DNA of 45,884 nt, from NCBI GenBank assembly GCA_944347775.1, contig CALVMT010000024.1:1-45884 (forward strand). The letters run 5' to 3'. A program made the translations under genes and the position numbers. The notes under the pieces are model-generated. The model was not told where the DNA came from. It saw nothing but the letters and a program-made list of their open reading frames with translations, and searched no databases. Shown piece by piece: positions 5,069 through 32,312 of the stretch. How positions within the stretch are numbered: the first letter of the stretch is position 1; every line of letters begins with the position of its first letter. Origin of the DNA: an uncultured Clostridia bacterium (GTDB lineage Bacteria; Bacillota; Clostridia; Christensenellales; Christensenellaceae).

Positions 5069-5974
5069 ATGCAAAAAAAACTGCTGCAGCAAACCGCTAA
5101 ACTTTCGGCCATTATTTTAGGCAACTGCCTGTATACTTTAGCCGTACAGCTTTTTATCCGCCCGGGCAATTTATTGACCGGCGGAACGACGGGAATTTCT
5201 CTCGCCGTCCAAAGAGCTTTTGGCCTTTCCGCATCGGGTTTTATGTTTTGCTTTAATAGCCTGCTCTTTCTTCTCGCCCTGTTTATTTTAGGTAAAACCT
5301 TTGCTCTCGGTACATTATTAAGCACTTTCCTCTCCCCTGCTTTGCTTGCGCTTTTTGAGAGGCTGTTTTCTCAAACCATCCTCACAAATGATCCCCTTTT
5401 ATGCAGCATTTTTGGTGGACTGAGTGTCGGTGCCGGGCTTGGCCTCGTAGTCCGTGCCGGTGCGTCGACGGGCGGTATGGATATTCCGCCTTTTTTACTG
5501 TATCGTTTTTGGCGTATTCCTATCTCGGTAAGCCTGTATTTTTTTGACGTATGTATTTTGTTGGCGCAAGCGGTGTCCAGCGATGCCGAGCGTATTCTCT
5601 ATAGCCTATTACTTATCCTATGCTATACGGTTACACTTAACAAAGTCATGTTGCTCGGGAAAAATCGCATTGAGGTGAAAATCATCAGCAGTAAATCACA
5701 TGAGATTTGCAAAGCAATTCTTTTTAGTCTTGATCGCGGCGTCACCCTGCTTCACGCTTACGGCGGATATAGCAACGAAAAATCACCGCTTATTTTAAGC
5801 ATTGTCTCCGCCAGGGAGCTAACCAGGTTGGAGACATTGGCCAAAGAAATTGATCCGCAATGCTTTATGGTCATAAGCCAAGTAAGTCAGGTTCAAGGAC
5901 GCGGTTTTTCCCTGGAAAAAAAGCATGAACAACTTAAGGAGATCTCCCAAGATTTAAATCATCCCCATATCTGA
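5069..5974 (+). CDS. YitT-family membrane protein (YitT_membrane plus DUF2179)
   Basis: 301 aa. The N-terminal ~200 residues are a multi-helix membrane domain with the family motif GNLLTGGTTGISL (about 33-45) and a second glycine-rich motif, VRAGASTGGMDI (about 128-139). The C-terminal ~90 residues form the soluble DUF2179 domain, with DRGVTLLHAYGGYSNE and a final QVQGRGFS. AAAGGAG precedes the ATG. The biochemical function of YitT proteins is not established; a transport role is usually assumed. It is one of three paralogues in this window. Expression probably depends on readthrough of the terminator in its leader. Confidence 0.9.
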   Translation: MQKKLLQQTAKLSAIILGNCLYTLAVQLFIRPGNLLTGGTTGISLAVQRAFGLSASGFMFCFNSLLFLLALFILGKTFALGTLLSTFLSPALLALFERLFSQTILTNDPLLCSIFGGLSVGAGLGLVVRAGASTGGMDIPPFLLYRFWRIPISVSLYFFDVCILLAQAVSSDAERILYSLLLILCYTVTLNKVMLLGKNRIEVKIISSKSHEICKAILFSLDRGVTLLHAYGGYSNEKSPLILSIVSARELTRLETLAKEIDPQCFMVISQVSQVQGRGFSLEKKHEQLKEISQDLNHPHI

Positions 5975-9094: not shown

Positions 9095-10018
9095 ATGAAG
9101 AGACATCATATCAGGCAAATCGCGATTGATATTGCTATTGAACTGTTTGCCAGTTTTTTGTGTGCCATTGGCTTATATAATTTTGCCGTCAGTGCCAATT
9201 TCCCGATAAGCGGCGTTTCCGGCATTACCACGATTCTTTATTATCTTTTCGATTTGCCTATCGGTATTATGACCATCGTCGTCAATATTCCTATTGCGGT
9301 GCTTTGCTATCGGCGGCTCGGCAAAAGCTTTTTCTGGCGCTCAGTACGCTGCATTATTTTCGGCTCGGTCATGACTGACTATGTTGCTCCGTTATTTCCT
9401 CTCTATACAGGGGATCGCATGCTCTCGGCGATCTGCACGGCTGCGATTTGTGGTATCGGCTATGCGTTAATCTATATGCGTGGCTCTTCGACTGGTGGCA
9501 CCGATTTTATCACGGTTTCCATTAAATCAGCGCATCCGCATCTGCCGCTCGGCAGAATTTCCTTTACCATAGAATCTCTGATCGTCTTAGCTGGCGGTAT
9601 CATCTACCGCGATGTCGACGGCGTCATTTACGGGTTGATCATTAATTTTATCCAGGGGATCGTCGTAGACAAACTGATGTACGGCATTAATGCCGGAAAA
9701 CTTGCACTGATCATTACAGATCATGGCAGTAGAGTTGCGCGCGTTATCGAAGAATGCTCTAATCGCGGTTCGACGATTATCGATGTTAAGGGGGCTTTCC
9801 AGCACGAAGAAAAACAAATGGTCTTGTGTGCATGCAGCAGCAAGCAAATGTATGAAGTGGAGCAGGCCGTTAAAGCGGCTGCACCCGAATCCTTTATTAT
9901 CATCTTGGAATCCAATGAGGTGCATGGCGAAGGCTTTTCGATTACGCGCGTCGCCCAACGCCCGGCGCGTATTCCGGCCAAGGGCGGTAAACAACTTCAC
10001 CTTCGCAAAAAGAAGTAA
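9095..10018 (+). CDS. YitT-family membrane protein (YitT_membrane plus DUF2179)
   Basis: 307 aa. Membrane domain with NFPISGVSGITTILYY (about 34-49) and YMRGSSTGGTDFI (about 127-139), then a DUF2179 domain with ECSNRGSTIIDVKGAF and a closing EVHGEGFSI. The basic tail PAKGGKQLHLRKKK is unusual. AAAGGAAG precedes the ATG at 9095. Same architecture as the gene at 5069-5974 but clearly divergent, so an old duplication. The function is unknown. Transcription must cross the terminator at 8995-9037. Confidence 0.9.
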   Translation: MKRHHIRQIAIDIAIELFASFLCAIGLYNFAVSANFPISGVSGITTILYYLFDLPIGIMTIVVNIPIAVLCYRRLGKSFFWRSVRCIIFGSVMTDYVAPLFPLYTGDRMLSAICTAAICGIGYALIYMRGSSTGGTDFITVSIKSAHPHLPLGRISFTIESLIVLAGGIIYRDVDGVIYGLIINFIQGIVVDKLMYGINAGKLALIITDHGSRVARVIEECSNRGSTIIDVKGAFQHEEKQMVLCACSSKQMYEVEQAVKAAAPESFIIILESNEVHGEGFSITRVAQRPARIPAKGGKQLHLRKKK

Positions 10019-10031
10019 TGCCGACGCCGGC

Positions 10032-10060
10032 TTGACAGAAATTCTTTTTTTTTGTATAGT
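10032..10060 (+). promoter_or_regulatory. Consensus sigma-A promoter of the lar operon
   Basis: Perfect TTGACA (10032-10037), 17-bp spacer, TATAGT (10055-10060). Predicted start is near 10067, leaving a leader of about 160 nt before larE. Confidence 0.8.
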
Positions 10061-10066
10061 TAAAGT

Positions 10067-10146
10067 AAGTTTTGGCAAGAAGCCAACAATGTTTTTTGCC
10101 CATTATGGGCAATCTGTATGTTTTGATGAAAAGCAGTATGCCAGAA
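10067..10146 (+). promoter_or_regulatory. Structured lar leader with antiterminator; candidate riboswitch
   Basis: Four consecutive hairpins can form: TTGGC-AAGAA-GCCAA (10072-10086), TTGCCCA-TTA-TGGGCAA (10096-10112), CTG..TTTT-GATG-AAAA.CAG (10114-10136) and ATGCC-AGAA-GGCAT (10138-10151). The last uses the same GGCAT that forms the 5' side of the terminator at 10147-10186, so the two are mutually exclusive: an antiterminator/terminator switch. A 24-codon frame (ATG at 10090, beginning MFFAHYGQSV) also runs through this leader but has no convincing ribosome binding site. The ligand is unknown; nickel, a cofactor intermediate or a nicotinate nucleotide would fit the genes. Confidence 0.55.
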
Positions 10147-10186
10147 GGCATGTAGACCAATAAAACGGTCGTGCATGCCTTTTTTT
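10147..10186 (+). terminator. Intrinsic terminator upstream of larE
   Basis: GGCATG (10147-10152) pairs with CATGCC (10174-10179), continued by GACC/GGTC with one bulged G, then seven T (10180-10186). It lies between the promoter and the larE start, so it is a conditional terminator. Confidence 0.8.
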
Positions 10187-10225: not shown

Positions 10226-10972
10226 ATGCAGTTATCTGAATTTTTTACTGAAAATCCACGAGTGGCACTGGCCTTCTCAGGCGGTGTCGATTCCGCTTAT
10301 CTGTTGTATGCCGCACTTAAATACGGTGCGCAGGTTCACGCTTACTATGTTAAAACGGTATTTCAACCACAGTTTGAGCTAGATGATGCTCTTCGGTTGG
10401 CAGCGCAGCTGAAAAATCAGCTATGCATCCTTGAAACCGATGTGCTTTCCTGCCCACAAATCGCAGCCAATCCGTCGGATCGTTGCTATCATTGCAAGCG
10501 TATGATCTTTTCGTGCATACAGCGCGCTGCCCTTAAAGACGGCATTTCGTTGCTTATTGACGGAACCAATGCTTCTGATGATGCAGCCGACCGCCCTGGA
10601 ATGCAGGCGCTTAAAGAGCTTAAAGTCCGTTCGCCGCTTAGGGAGTGTGGGCTAACCAAACCGGAAATCCGCCGCCTTTCCAAGGAAGCCGGCCTTTTTA
10701 CCTGGGATAAACCTGCCTACGCCTGCTTGGCTACACGTATTCCGACCGGAAGTGCCATTACACCCAAAATGTTATCTGACACCGAAAAGGCAGAGGCCTA
10801 CTTATATTCGCTTGGTTTTCGGGATTTTCGCGTCCGTTGCATAGGCGGCGCCGCCCGCATCCAGGTTCGGCAGGAGCAGCTTAGCCTTCTGATTTCTTTC
10901 CGCAGAGATATTTTACAGGCACTCGGCCCGCTGTACGACGGTGTCCTTTTGGATTTAGTCGTGCGTGAATAG
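10226..10972 (+). CDS. larE: LarE, ATP-dependent sulfur transferase of nickel-pincer cofactor synthesis
   Basis: 248 aa from ATG 10226, which has AAGGGGAAG at the right distance; the in-frame start at 10175 lies inside the terminator. LarE adenylates a carboxylate of pyridinium biscarboxylate mononucleotide and converts it to a thiocarboxylate. The PP-loop is FSGGVDSAYLL (about 18-28). SDRCYHCKR (about 80-88) carries a CxxC, and YACLATRIPTG (about 156-166) holds the cysteine that serves as the sacrificial sulfur donor in Lactobacillus LarE. Some homologues instead use an iron-sulfur cluster held by three cysteines, and the Cys pattern here leaves that open. First gene of larE-larB-larC. Confidence 0.92.
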   Translation: MQLSEFFTENPRVALAFSGGVDSAYLLYAALKYGAQVHAYYVKTVFQPQFELDDALRLAAQLKNQLCILETDVLSCPQIAANPSDRCYHCKRMIFSCIQRAALKDGISLLIDGTNASDDAADRPGMQALKELKVRSPLRECGLTKPEIRRLSKEAGLFTWDKPAYACLATRIPTGSAITPKMLSDTEKAEAYLYSLGFRDFRVRCIGGAARIQVRQEQLSLLISFRRDILQALGPLYDGVLLDLVVRE

Positions 10973-11036: not shown

Positions 11037-11050
11037 TTGGAGGTAAATCC

Positions 11051-11824
11051 ATGAACGAAAGTTATCGTCGCATTTTACAGGCGGTAAAAAACGGAGATCT
11101 TTCCGTTGATCAAGCATTAAATCGACTAAAAGCGCAGCCTTTTACCGACATCGGCTACGCCAAAATCGATATGCACCGCCGACTTCGCCAGGGCGCCGCG
11201 GAAGTTATTTACGGCGCCGGAAAAACGCCAGAACAGATTGCAGGTATTTTAAAAGCCATGCAAAAAGCAGGCCAGACACGCGCTCTTGTCACTCGACTCA
11301 GCGCACAGGCCGAAGAAGAAGTACGTAAATATTGTCCTCTTCACTACTATGCCGAAGCTCACCTTGGGATTATGGGCGATATGCCCGTGCCTGACGGCCT
11401 TGGACGCATCATCGTCGCAACCGGAGGAACAAGCGATATTCCCGTCGCCGAAGAAGCCGCTTTAACGGCAGAATTTTTAGGCAATCGCGTCACCCGGCTT
11501 TTTGATGTCGGCGTTGCCGGCTTACACCGTCTACTTGCCCATCTTGATGATCTTCTCGGCGCAAGCGTTGTTATTGCCGTTGCGGGAATGGAAGGCGCTC
11601 TTGCAAGCGTTGTCGGTGGCCTTGTCGATTGCCCGGTTATTGCCGTACCGACAAGCGTCGGCTACGGCGCTTCGTTTGGCGGCGTCTCTGCGCTGCTTTC
11701 TATGCTCAATTCCTGTGCCAGCGGTGTTTGCGCTGTCAATATTGACAACGGCTTCGGCGCAGGATTCCTCGCAAACCGCATTAATCATATGAAGGAGAAA
11801 ACAGATGAAAACCCTATACCTTGA
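11051..11824 (+). CDS. larB: LarB, pyridinium-3,5-biscarboxylic acid mononucleotide synthase
   Basis: 257 aa from ATG 11051 behind GGAGG. LarB carboxylates and hydrolyses nicotinate adenine dinucleotide, the first step of nickel-pincer nucleotide synthesis, and its C-terminal half is PurE-like. Seen here: FTDIGYAKIDMHRRLRQGAAEVIYG (about 32-56, residues near the start), GRIIVATGGTSDIPVAEEA (about 118-136) and VAGMEGALASVVGGLVDCPVIAVPTSVGYGASFGG (about 178-212), the strongly conserved PurE-type nucleotide and CO2 region. The end overlaps the larC start by 20 bp, implying coupled translation. Confidence 0.95.
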   Translation: MNESYRRILQAVKNGDLSVDQALNRLKAQPFTDIGYAKIDMHRRLRQGAAEVIYGAGKTPEQIAGILKAMQKAGQTRALVTRLSAQAEEEVRKYCPLHYYAEAHLGIMGDMPVPDGLGRIIVATGGTSDIPVAEEAALTAEFLGNRVTRLFDVGVAGLHRLLAHLDDLLGASVVIAVAGMEGALASVVGGLVDCPVIAVPTSVGYGASFGGVSALLSMLNSCASGVCAVNIDNGFGAGFLANRINHMKEKTDENPIP

Positions 11825-13121
11825 TTGTAGCATGGGCGCAGCCGGCGATATGCTCGCCGCGGCTCTTATCGAATTACTGCCCCCTATACAGGCGGAGCAG
11901 TTTATTGCACAGTTTCACGCACTTCATATTCCAGACGTTGAAATGGTCCGTGAAAGCGCCGTAAAATGTGGCATTACGGGAACACATATTTCAATGCGCA
12001 TCCACGGCAAAGAAGAAGATGCTTTTCTTAACGCTCAACAACACGACCATTCTCATGATCACGACCATTCTCATGATCACGACCACTCTCATGATCACGA
12101 CCATCCTCATGATCACGACCATCCTCATGATCACGACCATCCTCATGGTCACGGACATGTTCACAGCAGTATGTCGGATATCCGACATATCTTAGAACAC
12201 ACTGCTCTTTGTGCAAAAATCAAGCAGGATGTCCTTTCAGTATATTCCCTGATTGCCGAAGCGGAAAGCCATGCACATGGTGTTCCGATAGAGCAAATCC
12301 ATTTTCATGAAGTCGGATCAATGGACGCAATAGCCGATATTACCGCCGTTTGCATGCTGATCGATCTATTAAAACCCGAACAGATTATTGCTTCTCCCGT
12401 ACATGTTGGCAGCGGGCAAGTACGATGTGCTCACGGCATACTGCCTGTTCCGGCTCCCGCAACAGCATATATCCTGCGCGGAATCCCGATATACGGCGGC
12501 GCTGTCTTAGGTGAATTGTGTACGCCTACCGGAGCGGCACTGCTCAAGCATTTTGTCTCGCATTTTGGTCCAATGCCGCAAATGAGTATAGAAAGCATCG
12601 GATATGGCATGGGCAAAAAGGATTTCCCTGCAGCCAACTGCATCCGCGCGTTACTTGGCCAGACAACGGACGCCGCGCACGAAAACACAGCCTATGAACT
12701 TTCCTGCAATGTCGACGATATGACTGCTGAAGCAATTGGCTTTGCCTGCGAGCGGCTTTTTGAATGCGGAGCCGTCGAAGTTTATACTGTCCCCATTGGA
12801 ATGAAAAAATCGCGCCCCGGAACACTGCTTAAAGCGATTTGCTCTGCGGAGCGGCGCGAAGCGGTTGTGCAGGCATTTTTTGCACATACGACAACCATTG
12901 GCGTCCGCGAGATCAAGACAAAACGTTATGTACTTGACCGACGCATAACAGAGCAGCAAACGCCCTACGGGCCAGTGCATTCTAAAGTATCATCGGGCTA
13001 TGGCGTGGAGCGTACGAAAATAGAATATGAAGACTTACGGCGTATCGCCCTCGAACAAGGGATAAGTCTTTTTAAAGCTGCTCGCTTAATTGAGCAATCC
13101 ACGCAAAGCAAAGAAGAGTAA
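11805..13121 (+). CDS. larC: LarC, CTP-dependent nickel insertase, with a long His-Asp tract
   Basis: 438 aa. LarC inserts nickel into pyridinium bisthiocarboxylate mononucleotide to complete the cofactor used by lactate racemase and related enzymes. It starts LYLDCSMGAAGDM (about 3-15), as LarC proteins do; FHEVGSMDAIADI and NVDDMTAEAIG are also typical. Here larC is one continuous frame, unlike Lactobacillus plantarum, where larC1 and larC2 are joined by frameshifting. Residues about 79-117 are a His-Asp-rich tract built by an 18-bp DNA repeat, a likely nickel store. No larA-like racemase is in the window, so the enzyme served by the cofactor is elsewhere. Confidence 0.95.
   Translation: MKTLYLDCSMGAAGDMLAAALIELLPPIQAEQFIAQFHALHIPDVEMVRESAVKCGITGTHISMRIHGKEEDAFLNAQQHDHSHDHDHSHDHDHSHDHDHPHDHDHPHDHDHPHGHGHVHSSMSDIRHILEHTALCAKIKQDVLSVYSLIAEAESHAHGVPIEQIHFHEVGSMDAIADITAVCMLIDLLKPEQIIASPVHVGSGQVRCAHGILPVPAPATAYILRGIPIYGGAVLGELCTPTGAALLKHFVSHFGPMPQMSIESIGYGMGKKDFPAANCIRALLGQTTDAAHENTAYELSCNVDDMTAEAIGFACERLFECGAVEVYTVPIGMKKSRPGTLLKAICSAERREAVVQAFFAHTTTIGVREIKTKRYVLDRRITEQQTPYGPVHSKVSSGYGVERTKIEYEDLRRIALEQGISLFKAARLIEQSTQSKEE
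12042..12149 (+). repeat. Six tandem 18-bp repeats coding the LarC His-Asp tract
   Basis: Six units starting with CACGACCA, in frame, encode HDHSHD three times, HDHPHD twice and HDHPHG once. Units differ by one or two bases, so the array arose by recent tandem duplication. Copy number can be expected to vary between strains without breaking the frame. Confidence 0.95.
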
Positions 13122-15398: not shown

Positions 15399-15413
15399 AA
15401 GGAGTTGTTACCC

Positions 15414-16112
15414 TTGTTACGCGATTTGCGCAGATTCTTGCGCGATCTCATGTCGTCCGTTCGTTTTTCGCACTGTTTGTTATCTTTTCTTTCAAGCGCG
15501 TTTATCGCGTTTGGTTTTTATCATGTCCACGCCGTCTCAAAAGTAACGGAAGGTGGTATCCTCGGCCTGACGTTATTGCTCGAGCATTGGTTTGGCATAT
15601 CCCCTGCCGTTTCCGGCTTAATCATGAATTTATTTTGTTATGCCCTTGGCTTTAAGCTGATTGGGCGGAAATTTCTTTTCTTTTCGTTGATCTCTTCTGC
15701 GAGTTTTGCTCTTTTTTATCGGATTAATGAGCTGTTTTTTTCTCCCTTCTGGCCGCAGCTTGCGGATATGCCGCTTTTTTCGGCGTTGCTTGGCGCGATT
15801 TTTGTTGGCGTCGGCGCAGGCATCTGCGTGCGTATCGGTGGCGCACCGAGTGGAGACGATGCTCTGGCCATGAGCCTTTCACACCTCACCCACTTGCCTA
15901 TCCAATGGGTATATTTTATTTGTGACCTCATTGTGCTTGGCCTTTCGGCAACATATCTGCCGCTTGATCGCCTGGTTTACTCATTGCTTACCGTACTTTT
16001 ATCCGGACAAATCATTGGGTTGATCCAACGTGTTTCCTTTTTTATGCATAAAAAGACTTCACAGAAGAAAAAAAATCCGCAGGAAGCAAAATTTCTTACG
16101 GATAGCCTTTAG
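15414..16112 (+). CDS. YitT-family membrane protein, short form without DUF2179
   Basis: About 232 aa from TTG 15414, which lies 9 bp after GGAG; the in-frame TTG at 15405 directly abuts it. The membrane domain has SKVTEGGILGLTLLLEHW (about 38-55) and a second motif VRIGGAPSGDDALAMSL (about 140-156), where paralogues have GASTGGMD. It ends after QRVSFFMHKKTSQ and lacks the C-terminal DUF2179 domain of the paralogues at 5069 and 9095. It is cotranscribed with marR and so probably induced by the ligand of that regulator. Confidence 0.85.
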   Translation: MLRDLRRFLRDLMSSVRFSHCLLSFLSSAFIAFGFYHVHAVSKVTEGGILGLTLLLEHWFGISPAVSGLIMNLFCYALGFKLIGRKFLFFSLISSASFALFYRINELFFSPFWPQLADMPLFSALLGAIFVGVGAGICVRIGGAPSGDDALAMSLSHLTHLPIQWVYFICDLIVLGLSATYLPLDRLVYSLLTVLLSGQIIGLIQRVSFFMHKKTSQKKKNPQEAKFLTDSL

Positions 16113-32027: not shown

Positions 32028-32312
32028 ATAAAAAAGGCTTCCGCCCAAAAGGGCGAAAGTCTCGCGTTACCACCTTTAATTTCCCTGTGCATCACTGCCC
32101 CGGGGCTTGACTCCTTATCAACAGACAAGGCCGCGCAATAACGGCCGCTACCGTTGCGCACTTTACGCACGCACAACTCCAAAGCGACTTCGCCGGCTGC
32201 CTTGCCGCCGCCCTTTCACCAAATGGGCAGCTCTCTTTTGCCGCAGTAACGGCTACTCCTCTTTTTCAACGTCTTTCATTTTTCATCATGTTGGGAAAGC
32301 TACACCTTCCCT
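32028..32312 (-). promoter_or_regulatory. T-box riboswitch of valS
   Basis: A leader of about 280 nt on the minus strand. The T-box core AAAGGTGGTAACGCGAGA is at 32060-32077. It is followed by the terminator stem CTTTCGCCC / GGGCGGAAG and six T (32030-32059). Upstream, Stem I features are seen: GAGTAG, AGAGAG, then the specifier region GAA-GTC-GCTTTGGAG. The specifier is GTC (32186-32188), a valine codon, which matches the gene. Uncharged tRNA-Val should prevent termination and raise valS and folC expression. Confidence 0.95.

Follow-up and report, generated by a model that had tools for sequence, protein, structure and literature searches.

What controls the supply of the nickel-pincer cofactor at a clostridial lar operon that is preceded by a promoter, several small hairpins and a terminator? 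The question arises at positions 10032–10186 of the window, by which we mean the whole stretch of 45,884 nucleotides analysed here, from contig CALVMT010000024.1 of an uncultured Clostridia bacterium. The literature searched holds no account of leader-RNA control of nickel-pincer cofactor supply, and the accessible portions of PMC11770544 and PMC7583248 contain nothing on lar transport or lar gene control. According to the available part of PMC11796402, about 15% of the genomes in one survey carry larBCE without larA, and unknown users of the cofactor are therefore expected. All three genes of the operon were confirmed by NCBIfam, larB and larC by Pfam as well:

10226–10972, forward strand: larE, for sulfur insertion, at the head of the controlled operon (TIGR00268, 2.3e-71)
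11048–11824, forward strand: larB (NF033503, 1.3e-84)
11805–13121, forward strand: larC, with a histidine-rich repeat stretch (TIGR00299, 1.5e-63; PF01969, 1.2e-133)

The leader upstream of larE contains the following elements:

10032–10060, forward strand: sigma-70-type promoter, TTGACA-17-TATAGT, 11 of 12 consensus positions by pattern match only
10072–10086, forward strand: h1, a 5-nt-loop hairpin of the shared motif, TTGGC-[AAGAA]-GCCAA; its loop class also precedes other lar and ECF genes
10096–10112, forward strand: hairpin TTGCCCATTATGGGCAA at the place of h2, without the shared loop; its distance from h1 lies within the 12–18 nt of h1-h2 pairs
10119–10135, forward strand: weak hairpin TGTTTTGATGAAAAGCA, -2.3 kcal/mol
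10136–10153, forward strand: h3, putative antiterminator, GTATGCC-[AGAA]-GGCATGT; its 3' arm doubles as the 5' arm of the terminator, an overlap design seen in other leaders
10145–10185, forward strand: intrinsic terminator with inner stem GACC/GGTC and T7 (stem 10145–10181, T7 10179–10185)

The promoter boxes, TTGACA at 10032–10037 and TATAGT at 10055–10060, are separated by a 17-nt spacer, and transcription would start near 10067. A sequence-only reading of this DNA had described a perfect promoter, three clear hairpins and two mutually exclusive stems. The promoter is indeed present, near-consensus rather than perfect; the four hairpins, h3 included, can be read from the sequence and also form when the truncated leader is folded (z = -2.45), those at 10096–10112 and 10119–10135 without the conserved loop; and the exclusivity of h3 and the terminator stands, because both use GGCAT at 10147–10151. 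Folded alone, the terminator reaches -20.3 kcal/mol, a value equalled by 0 of 200 shuffles, and h3 reaches -6.9 kcal/mol; a terminator stronger by 13 kcal/mol implies that h3 needs help. The terminator is also preferred in the fold of the whole leader (z = -4.96), so termination would be the default unless h3 is held by something. With a promoter, two exclusive stems, a terminator with a T-run and genes downstream, the leader is best explained as a transcription attenuator of a class absent from Rfam.

An Rfam scan of the leader, at the gathering thresholds and at E 10, found no relevant family. The NiCo riboswitch resembles it in lying ahead of nickel-related genes; its Rfam model gave no match at either setting, in agreement with the sequence-only reading, and its architecture differs from that of the lar leader. 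In a DNA similarity search with the leader (61 genomes), the sole convincing score was the leader itself, and plasmids returned none. The only Rfam match within the window is a T-box leader at 32046–32278 on the reverse strand (RF00230, 100.2 bits).

The loop class of h1 and h3, C-[(A)NGAA]-G or more broadly C-[N(1-2)GAA]-G, recurs upstream of other lar operons. The motif was defined on lar leaders by searching for larE relatives and reading their upstream DNA, taken as 300 nt ahead of 110 larE loci, two of which duplicate one another. Among the rows analysed in this work, L001 (identical to L031), L066 (identical to L032) and L278 (too short) were dropped. Counting stems of at least 4 pairs, this upstream DNA holds 79 hairpins in 33 kb (2.4 per kb), compared with 80 in 338 kb (0.24 per kb) downstream. 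The terminator/antiterminator design that the earlier reading had placed upstream of lar is thus correct and conserved at other lar loci. Neither outcome that this reading had named as counting against it was observed: conserved structure is present ahead of homologous lar operons, and a known Rfam class does not explain the leader.

For the architecture census, the motif was sought as C-N(1-2)-GAA-G, giving 178 hairpins from 94 leaders picked for carrying it. The 4-nt loops were mostly AGAA (60), CGAA (14) and TGAA (14), and the 5-nt loops ATGAA (34), AGGAA (27), ACGAA (15) and AAGAA (7). Neighbouring hairpins formed 43 pairs, with a 5-nt loop followed by a 4-nt loop in 32 and a spacing of 12–18 nt in 41. 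Fuller leaders present an h1-h2 pair, then an h3 whose 3' arm opens the terminator, and often a fourth hairpin capping the terminator stem (e.g., L061, L083, L085, L094 and L185, judged by eye and uncounted). Among hairpins 22–50 nt before the T-run, the 3' arm matches the far arm of the terminator at 6 or 7 of 7 positions in 22 of 33, compared with 9 of 41 hairpins at 80–130 nt and a permuted mean of 30%. Compensatory changes on both sides were seen at 10 of the 12 h1-h2 stem pairs in 13 lar leaders, and 95.5% of alignment cells were paired versus 24–47% when slid; since the hairpins were picked for pairing, this compensation reflects stem variety and is not proof of pairing. Conservation is limited to the loop and its closing pair, the stems being short and free.

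Against this background the window is a reduced example: the shared loop is kept at two of four hairpin positions (h1 and h3), and the loops of h2 and h4 are missing. The hairpin at 10096–10112 may be a decayed h2, and the inner stem of the terminator, a fourth shared-loop hairpin in many relatives, lacks the loop here. A genome of the same genus (L034) has an equally reduced form, judged by eye. Because the h2 and h4 loops are not kept, the h1-h2 covariance model misses the window, with no match in its genome at E 0.5 and h1 alone at E 7.6.

Two such models, R1 and R2, were built from h1-h2 and searched in relatives. R1 matched in 15 of 297 genomes (L142, L145 and L146 judged real; L141, L143, L144 and L147–L149 false; L150–L155 outside the inspection), and R2 in 7 of 391 (L145 and L156–L159 accepted, L160 and L161 not). 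The h1-h2 model also found further lar leaders, some with two small membrane ORFs ahead of larE. These two ORFs, of about 125 and 103 aa and judged by eye to resemble membrane proteins, lie between leader and larE at L114:2250-2932, with relatives in L083, L085, L089, L094 and L123; neither has an NCBIfam or Pfam match, and relatives of the first occur in 13 larE loci. A CbiM-like metal transporter gene was seen 3' of larC at L127:5667-6725, with matches below the NCBIfam cut-offs.

The model search further placed four leaders (L142, L145, L158 and L159) upstream of genes for ECF transporter S components, all of a single family. PF12822 was found in all three S components scanned; the ThiT and FolT models matched below cut-off only. 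A model-free test, in which this S component was searched in 297 genomes of the order and the 300 nt upstream were read, gave 82 hairpins upstream of 82 ECF genes versus 2.8 in shuffles. A loop-free census confined to 4-5 nt loops ranked CATGAAG, CAGAAG, CAGGAAG, CCGAAG and CACGAAG first upstream of the ECF genes of genomes with DUF3842, so that the five commonest loops all belong to the shared class. Leaders also precede an operon that joins a family-5 solute-binding transporter to larEBC (L185) and a FecCD-type ABC operon (L186), and these two transporter operons mean that metal uptake may be involved.

DUF3842 (PF12953), an uncharacterised family of about 135 residues, accompanies the hairpins at both targets. 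All 14 motif genomes tested have it, and none of 14 named control genomes does; it was also found in 74 of the 297 order genomes and in 45 of another 68, which are mostly lar-bearing. The window's genome (90% complete) has one DUF3842 gene, on G000:C46. For ECF genes, the set was enlarged to 103 by adding 21 genes at E ≤ 1e-20, all in DUF3842-negative genomes, with one gene near a contig end omitted. Hairpins precede 43 of 56 ECF genes with DUF3842 in the genome versus 3 of 47 without (p = 7.5e-14), and they occur at 46 of 72 lar loci with DUF3842 versus 5 of 31 without (p = 1e-5), both p-values being inflated by the shared ancestry of the genomes; L079, L116, L121, L136, L138 and L140, whose genomes lay outside the DUF3842 search, were left out of the lar table. 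Within the four families showing both DUF3842 states, the counts in the 82-gene ECF set were 20 of 25 with and 1 of 16 without.

The exceptions run both ways. The DUF3842-negative genomes with hairpins before ECF genes are G002, G246 and G180, of which G246 and G180 have one 4-pair hairpin each and G002 is an 80% complete genome whose genus mates mostly carry DUF3842. The DUF3842-negative lar loci with hairpins are L043, L084, L094 (a good leader), L103 and L107. Conversely, 26 of 72 DUF3842-positive lar loci have no counted hairpins, in some cases because larE is an internal gene of a longer operon or only distantly paralogous.

In 25 of the 53 order genomes that have both genes, at most 500 bp separate DUF3842 from the ECF gene; DUF3842 also falls inside the flanking DNA fetched for 18 of 110 lar loci, and in G186 a leader precedes a DUF3842-ECF operon. 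The DUF3842 gene itself was considered as the usual target of the switch and discarded, with upstream hairpins in 2 of 15 cases only. Among the 74 order genomes with DUF3842, larE is present in 26 (7 of which also have the ECF gene) and absent from 48; the ECF gene occurs in 46 of these 48, and in 44 of the 213 genomes with neither DUF3842 nor larE. These counts lead us to propose that the S component takes up the nickel-pincer cofactor or one of its precursors, in a system to which DUF3842 would also belong. The literature searched contains no paper naming DUF3842 and no nickel-pincer cofactor uptake system. Three ECF-leader genomes (G020, G563 and G462) have Lar_N matches and no LarC match, the pattern expected if they import the cofactor; a fourth, G117, has a LarC match as well. 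In the window's genome neither an ECF gene of the hairpin-preceded family nor a Lar_N match was found. LarA, the obvious cofactor user, was not decisive as a marker, since Lar_N occurs in 31 of 80 chosen genomes both with and without DUF3842; its absence from the other 49 implies that the cofactor user often goes unidentified, as the introduction of PMC11796402 remarks in its available part.

Starting from what the sequences establish, namely the hairpins, their overlap with the terminator, their recurrence at lar and ECF genes and their link to DUF3842, we propose a dual-hairpin antiterminator bound by a protein, probably DUF3842, that would tune cofactor synthesis or uptake to need; we regard the chances of this proposal as evenly balanced. 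RNA polymerase would halt by default on reaching the strong terminator. C-G-closed hairpins with 4-nt NGAA or 5-nt ANGAA loops would be read by a trans-acting protein, most likely DUF3842; the fuller leaders would offer such hairpins as the h1-h2 pair, again as h3 and often a fourth time at the terminator tip. Bound h3 would withhold the strand needed by the terminator and allow read-through into the genes; with plentiful cofactor, the protein would release the RNA and the terminator would form. In this scheme DUF3842 presumably binds the leader RNA, binding presumably switches the operon on, and NPN or a precursor would be the signal. Co-occurrence of DUF3842 with the hairpins is not binding, and the association was computed for DUF3842 as the sole protein family.

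Several known systems help to place the proposal. Dual-hairpin antiterminators read by ANTAR proteins (EutV, NasR, AmiR) are alike in having two small hairpins with a conserved loop and closing pair, a short linker and a hairpin that excludes the terminator, as far as the available text of PMC3369931 describes them. ANTAR targets carry hexanucleotide loops with A at position 1 and G at position 4. Here, in contrast, the loops are 4-nt NGAA or 5-nt ANGAA closed by C-G: those of the window are AAGAA and AGAA, and CAGAAG taken as a hexaloop would begin with C and have A as its fourth base, in a census restricted to 4-5 nt loops. The terminator-exclusive hairpin is shared with ANTAR targets (10136–10153 against 10145–10181, and the 22 of 33 cases in relatives). 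Dual hairpins with a short linker are seen in the fuller leaders; in the window the second hairpin lacks the loop. A second hairpin set (h3-h4) is frequent here, unlike in the ANTAR case, and the co-occurring protein is DUF3842. The guanidine-II (mini-ykkC) riboswitch also has two tandem similar stem-loops with short C-G-closed loops, as far as its accessible description goes. Its loops are ACGR, without GAA; the present leaders differ further in controlling lar and ECF genes and in following DUF3842, and Rfam gave no match to it. CsrA-type recognition was set aside on loop sequences alone. PyrR and HutP are small metabolite-sensing attenuation proteins that read leader hairpins without a classical RNA-binding domain; DUF3842 is likened to them by its proposed role rather than by sequence.

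The strongest competitor, which we consider possible but distinctly the less probable course, is a riboswitch in which the tandem hairpins bind NPN, a pathway intermediate or nickel, much like the paired loops of guanidine-II, with DUF3842 simply co-occurring as a carrier or enzyme that serves this cofactor. Riboswitches usually place the genes for making and for taking up a cofactor under one leader type, and such sharing is seen here; moreover, 19 of 27 genomes reached via lar loci have a model match at E ≤ 0.01, one each and on the lar contig, and the genome of L094, whose leader is a good one, gave no DUF3842 match. Against direct ligand binding, just the loop and closing pair are conserved, and DUF3842-negative lar loci, which would make NPN too, mostly lack hairpins. 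Short hairpins with a common loop, free stems and a presence that follows DUF3842 at lar and ECF genes fit a protein-bound antiterminator better than an aptamer. The sequence-only reading was right about a terminator/antiterminator attenuator, and the riboswitch that it suggested is one candidate mechanism. Of the signals it listed, plain nickel is disfavoured because the other regulated gene encodes an ECF S component of the vitamin type (PF12822); this component takes the place of larE in genomes with DUF3842, which suggests the cofactor or an intermediate as the signal.

The antiterminator might instead be held by a protein other than DUF3842, which we judge improbable. The resemblance of the hairpin architecture to ANTAR targets, within the available text of PMC3369931, would suit such a binder, as would the absence of any RNA-binding signature in DUF3842, for which a profile search of solved structures gave uL1 alone (E = 0.092). 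DUF3842 alone, however, already explains most of the presence and absence of hairpins, and its gene adjoins the ECF and lar genes as counted above. A plain terminator with chance hairpins would fit the two loop-bearing hairpins that the window retains, but it is very improbable, since the 300 nt upstream of larE hold two shared-loop hairpins (stem of at least 5 pairs), a number reached by 0 of 5000 dinucleotide shuffles, and the hairpins recur in lar and ECF leaders. Translation-coupled attenuation through the 24-codon leader peptide raised by the earlier reading is scarcely credible: the ORF exists, starting at 10089 rather than 10090, and spans h3, but its peptide has no single-codon run, and short ORFs that overlap the last hairpin and have a ribosome-binding site occur in 8 of 94 leaders versus 14.5% in shuffles.

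A wider reading, which we rate well below an even chance, would make DUF3842 a new family of RNA-binding antiterminators that sense the cofactor and read pairs of C-[(A)NGAA]-G hairpins; the ECF S component would be the first importer found for the nickel-pincer nucleotide or a precursor, with making or importing placed under one control. The leader points to a candidate new family of RNA-binding regulators, and it provides a sequence handle on cofactor users by joining lar, the ECF importer candidate and DUF3842 in one testable unit.

Other features of the locus deserve mention. A long HDHDH-type histidine repeat in larC, at about 12040–12160, is likely a nickel store, and a weak Pfam Zip match falls there as well. 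Three genes for YitT-family membrane proteins flank the operon on the forward strand (5069–5974, 9095–10018 and 15405–16112), and the window's genome carries a second, distant larE-like gene with 35% identity at G000:C58:677-1366.
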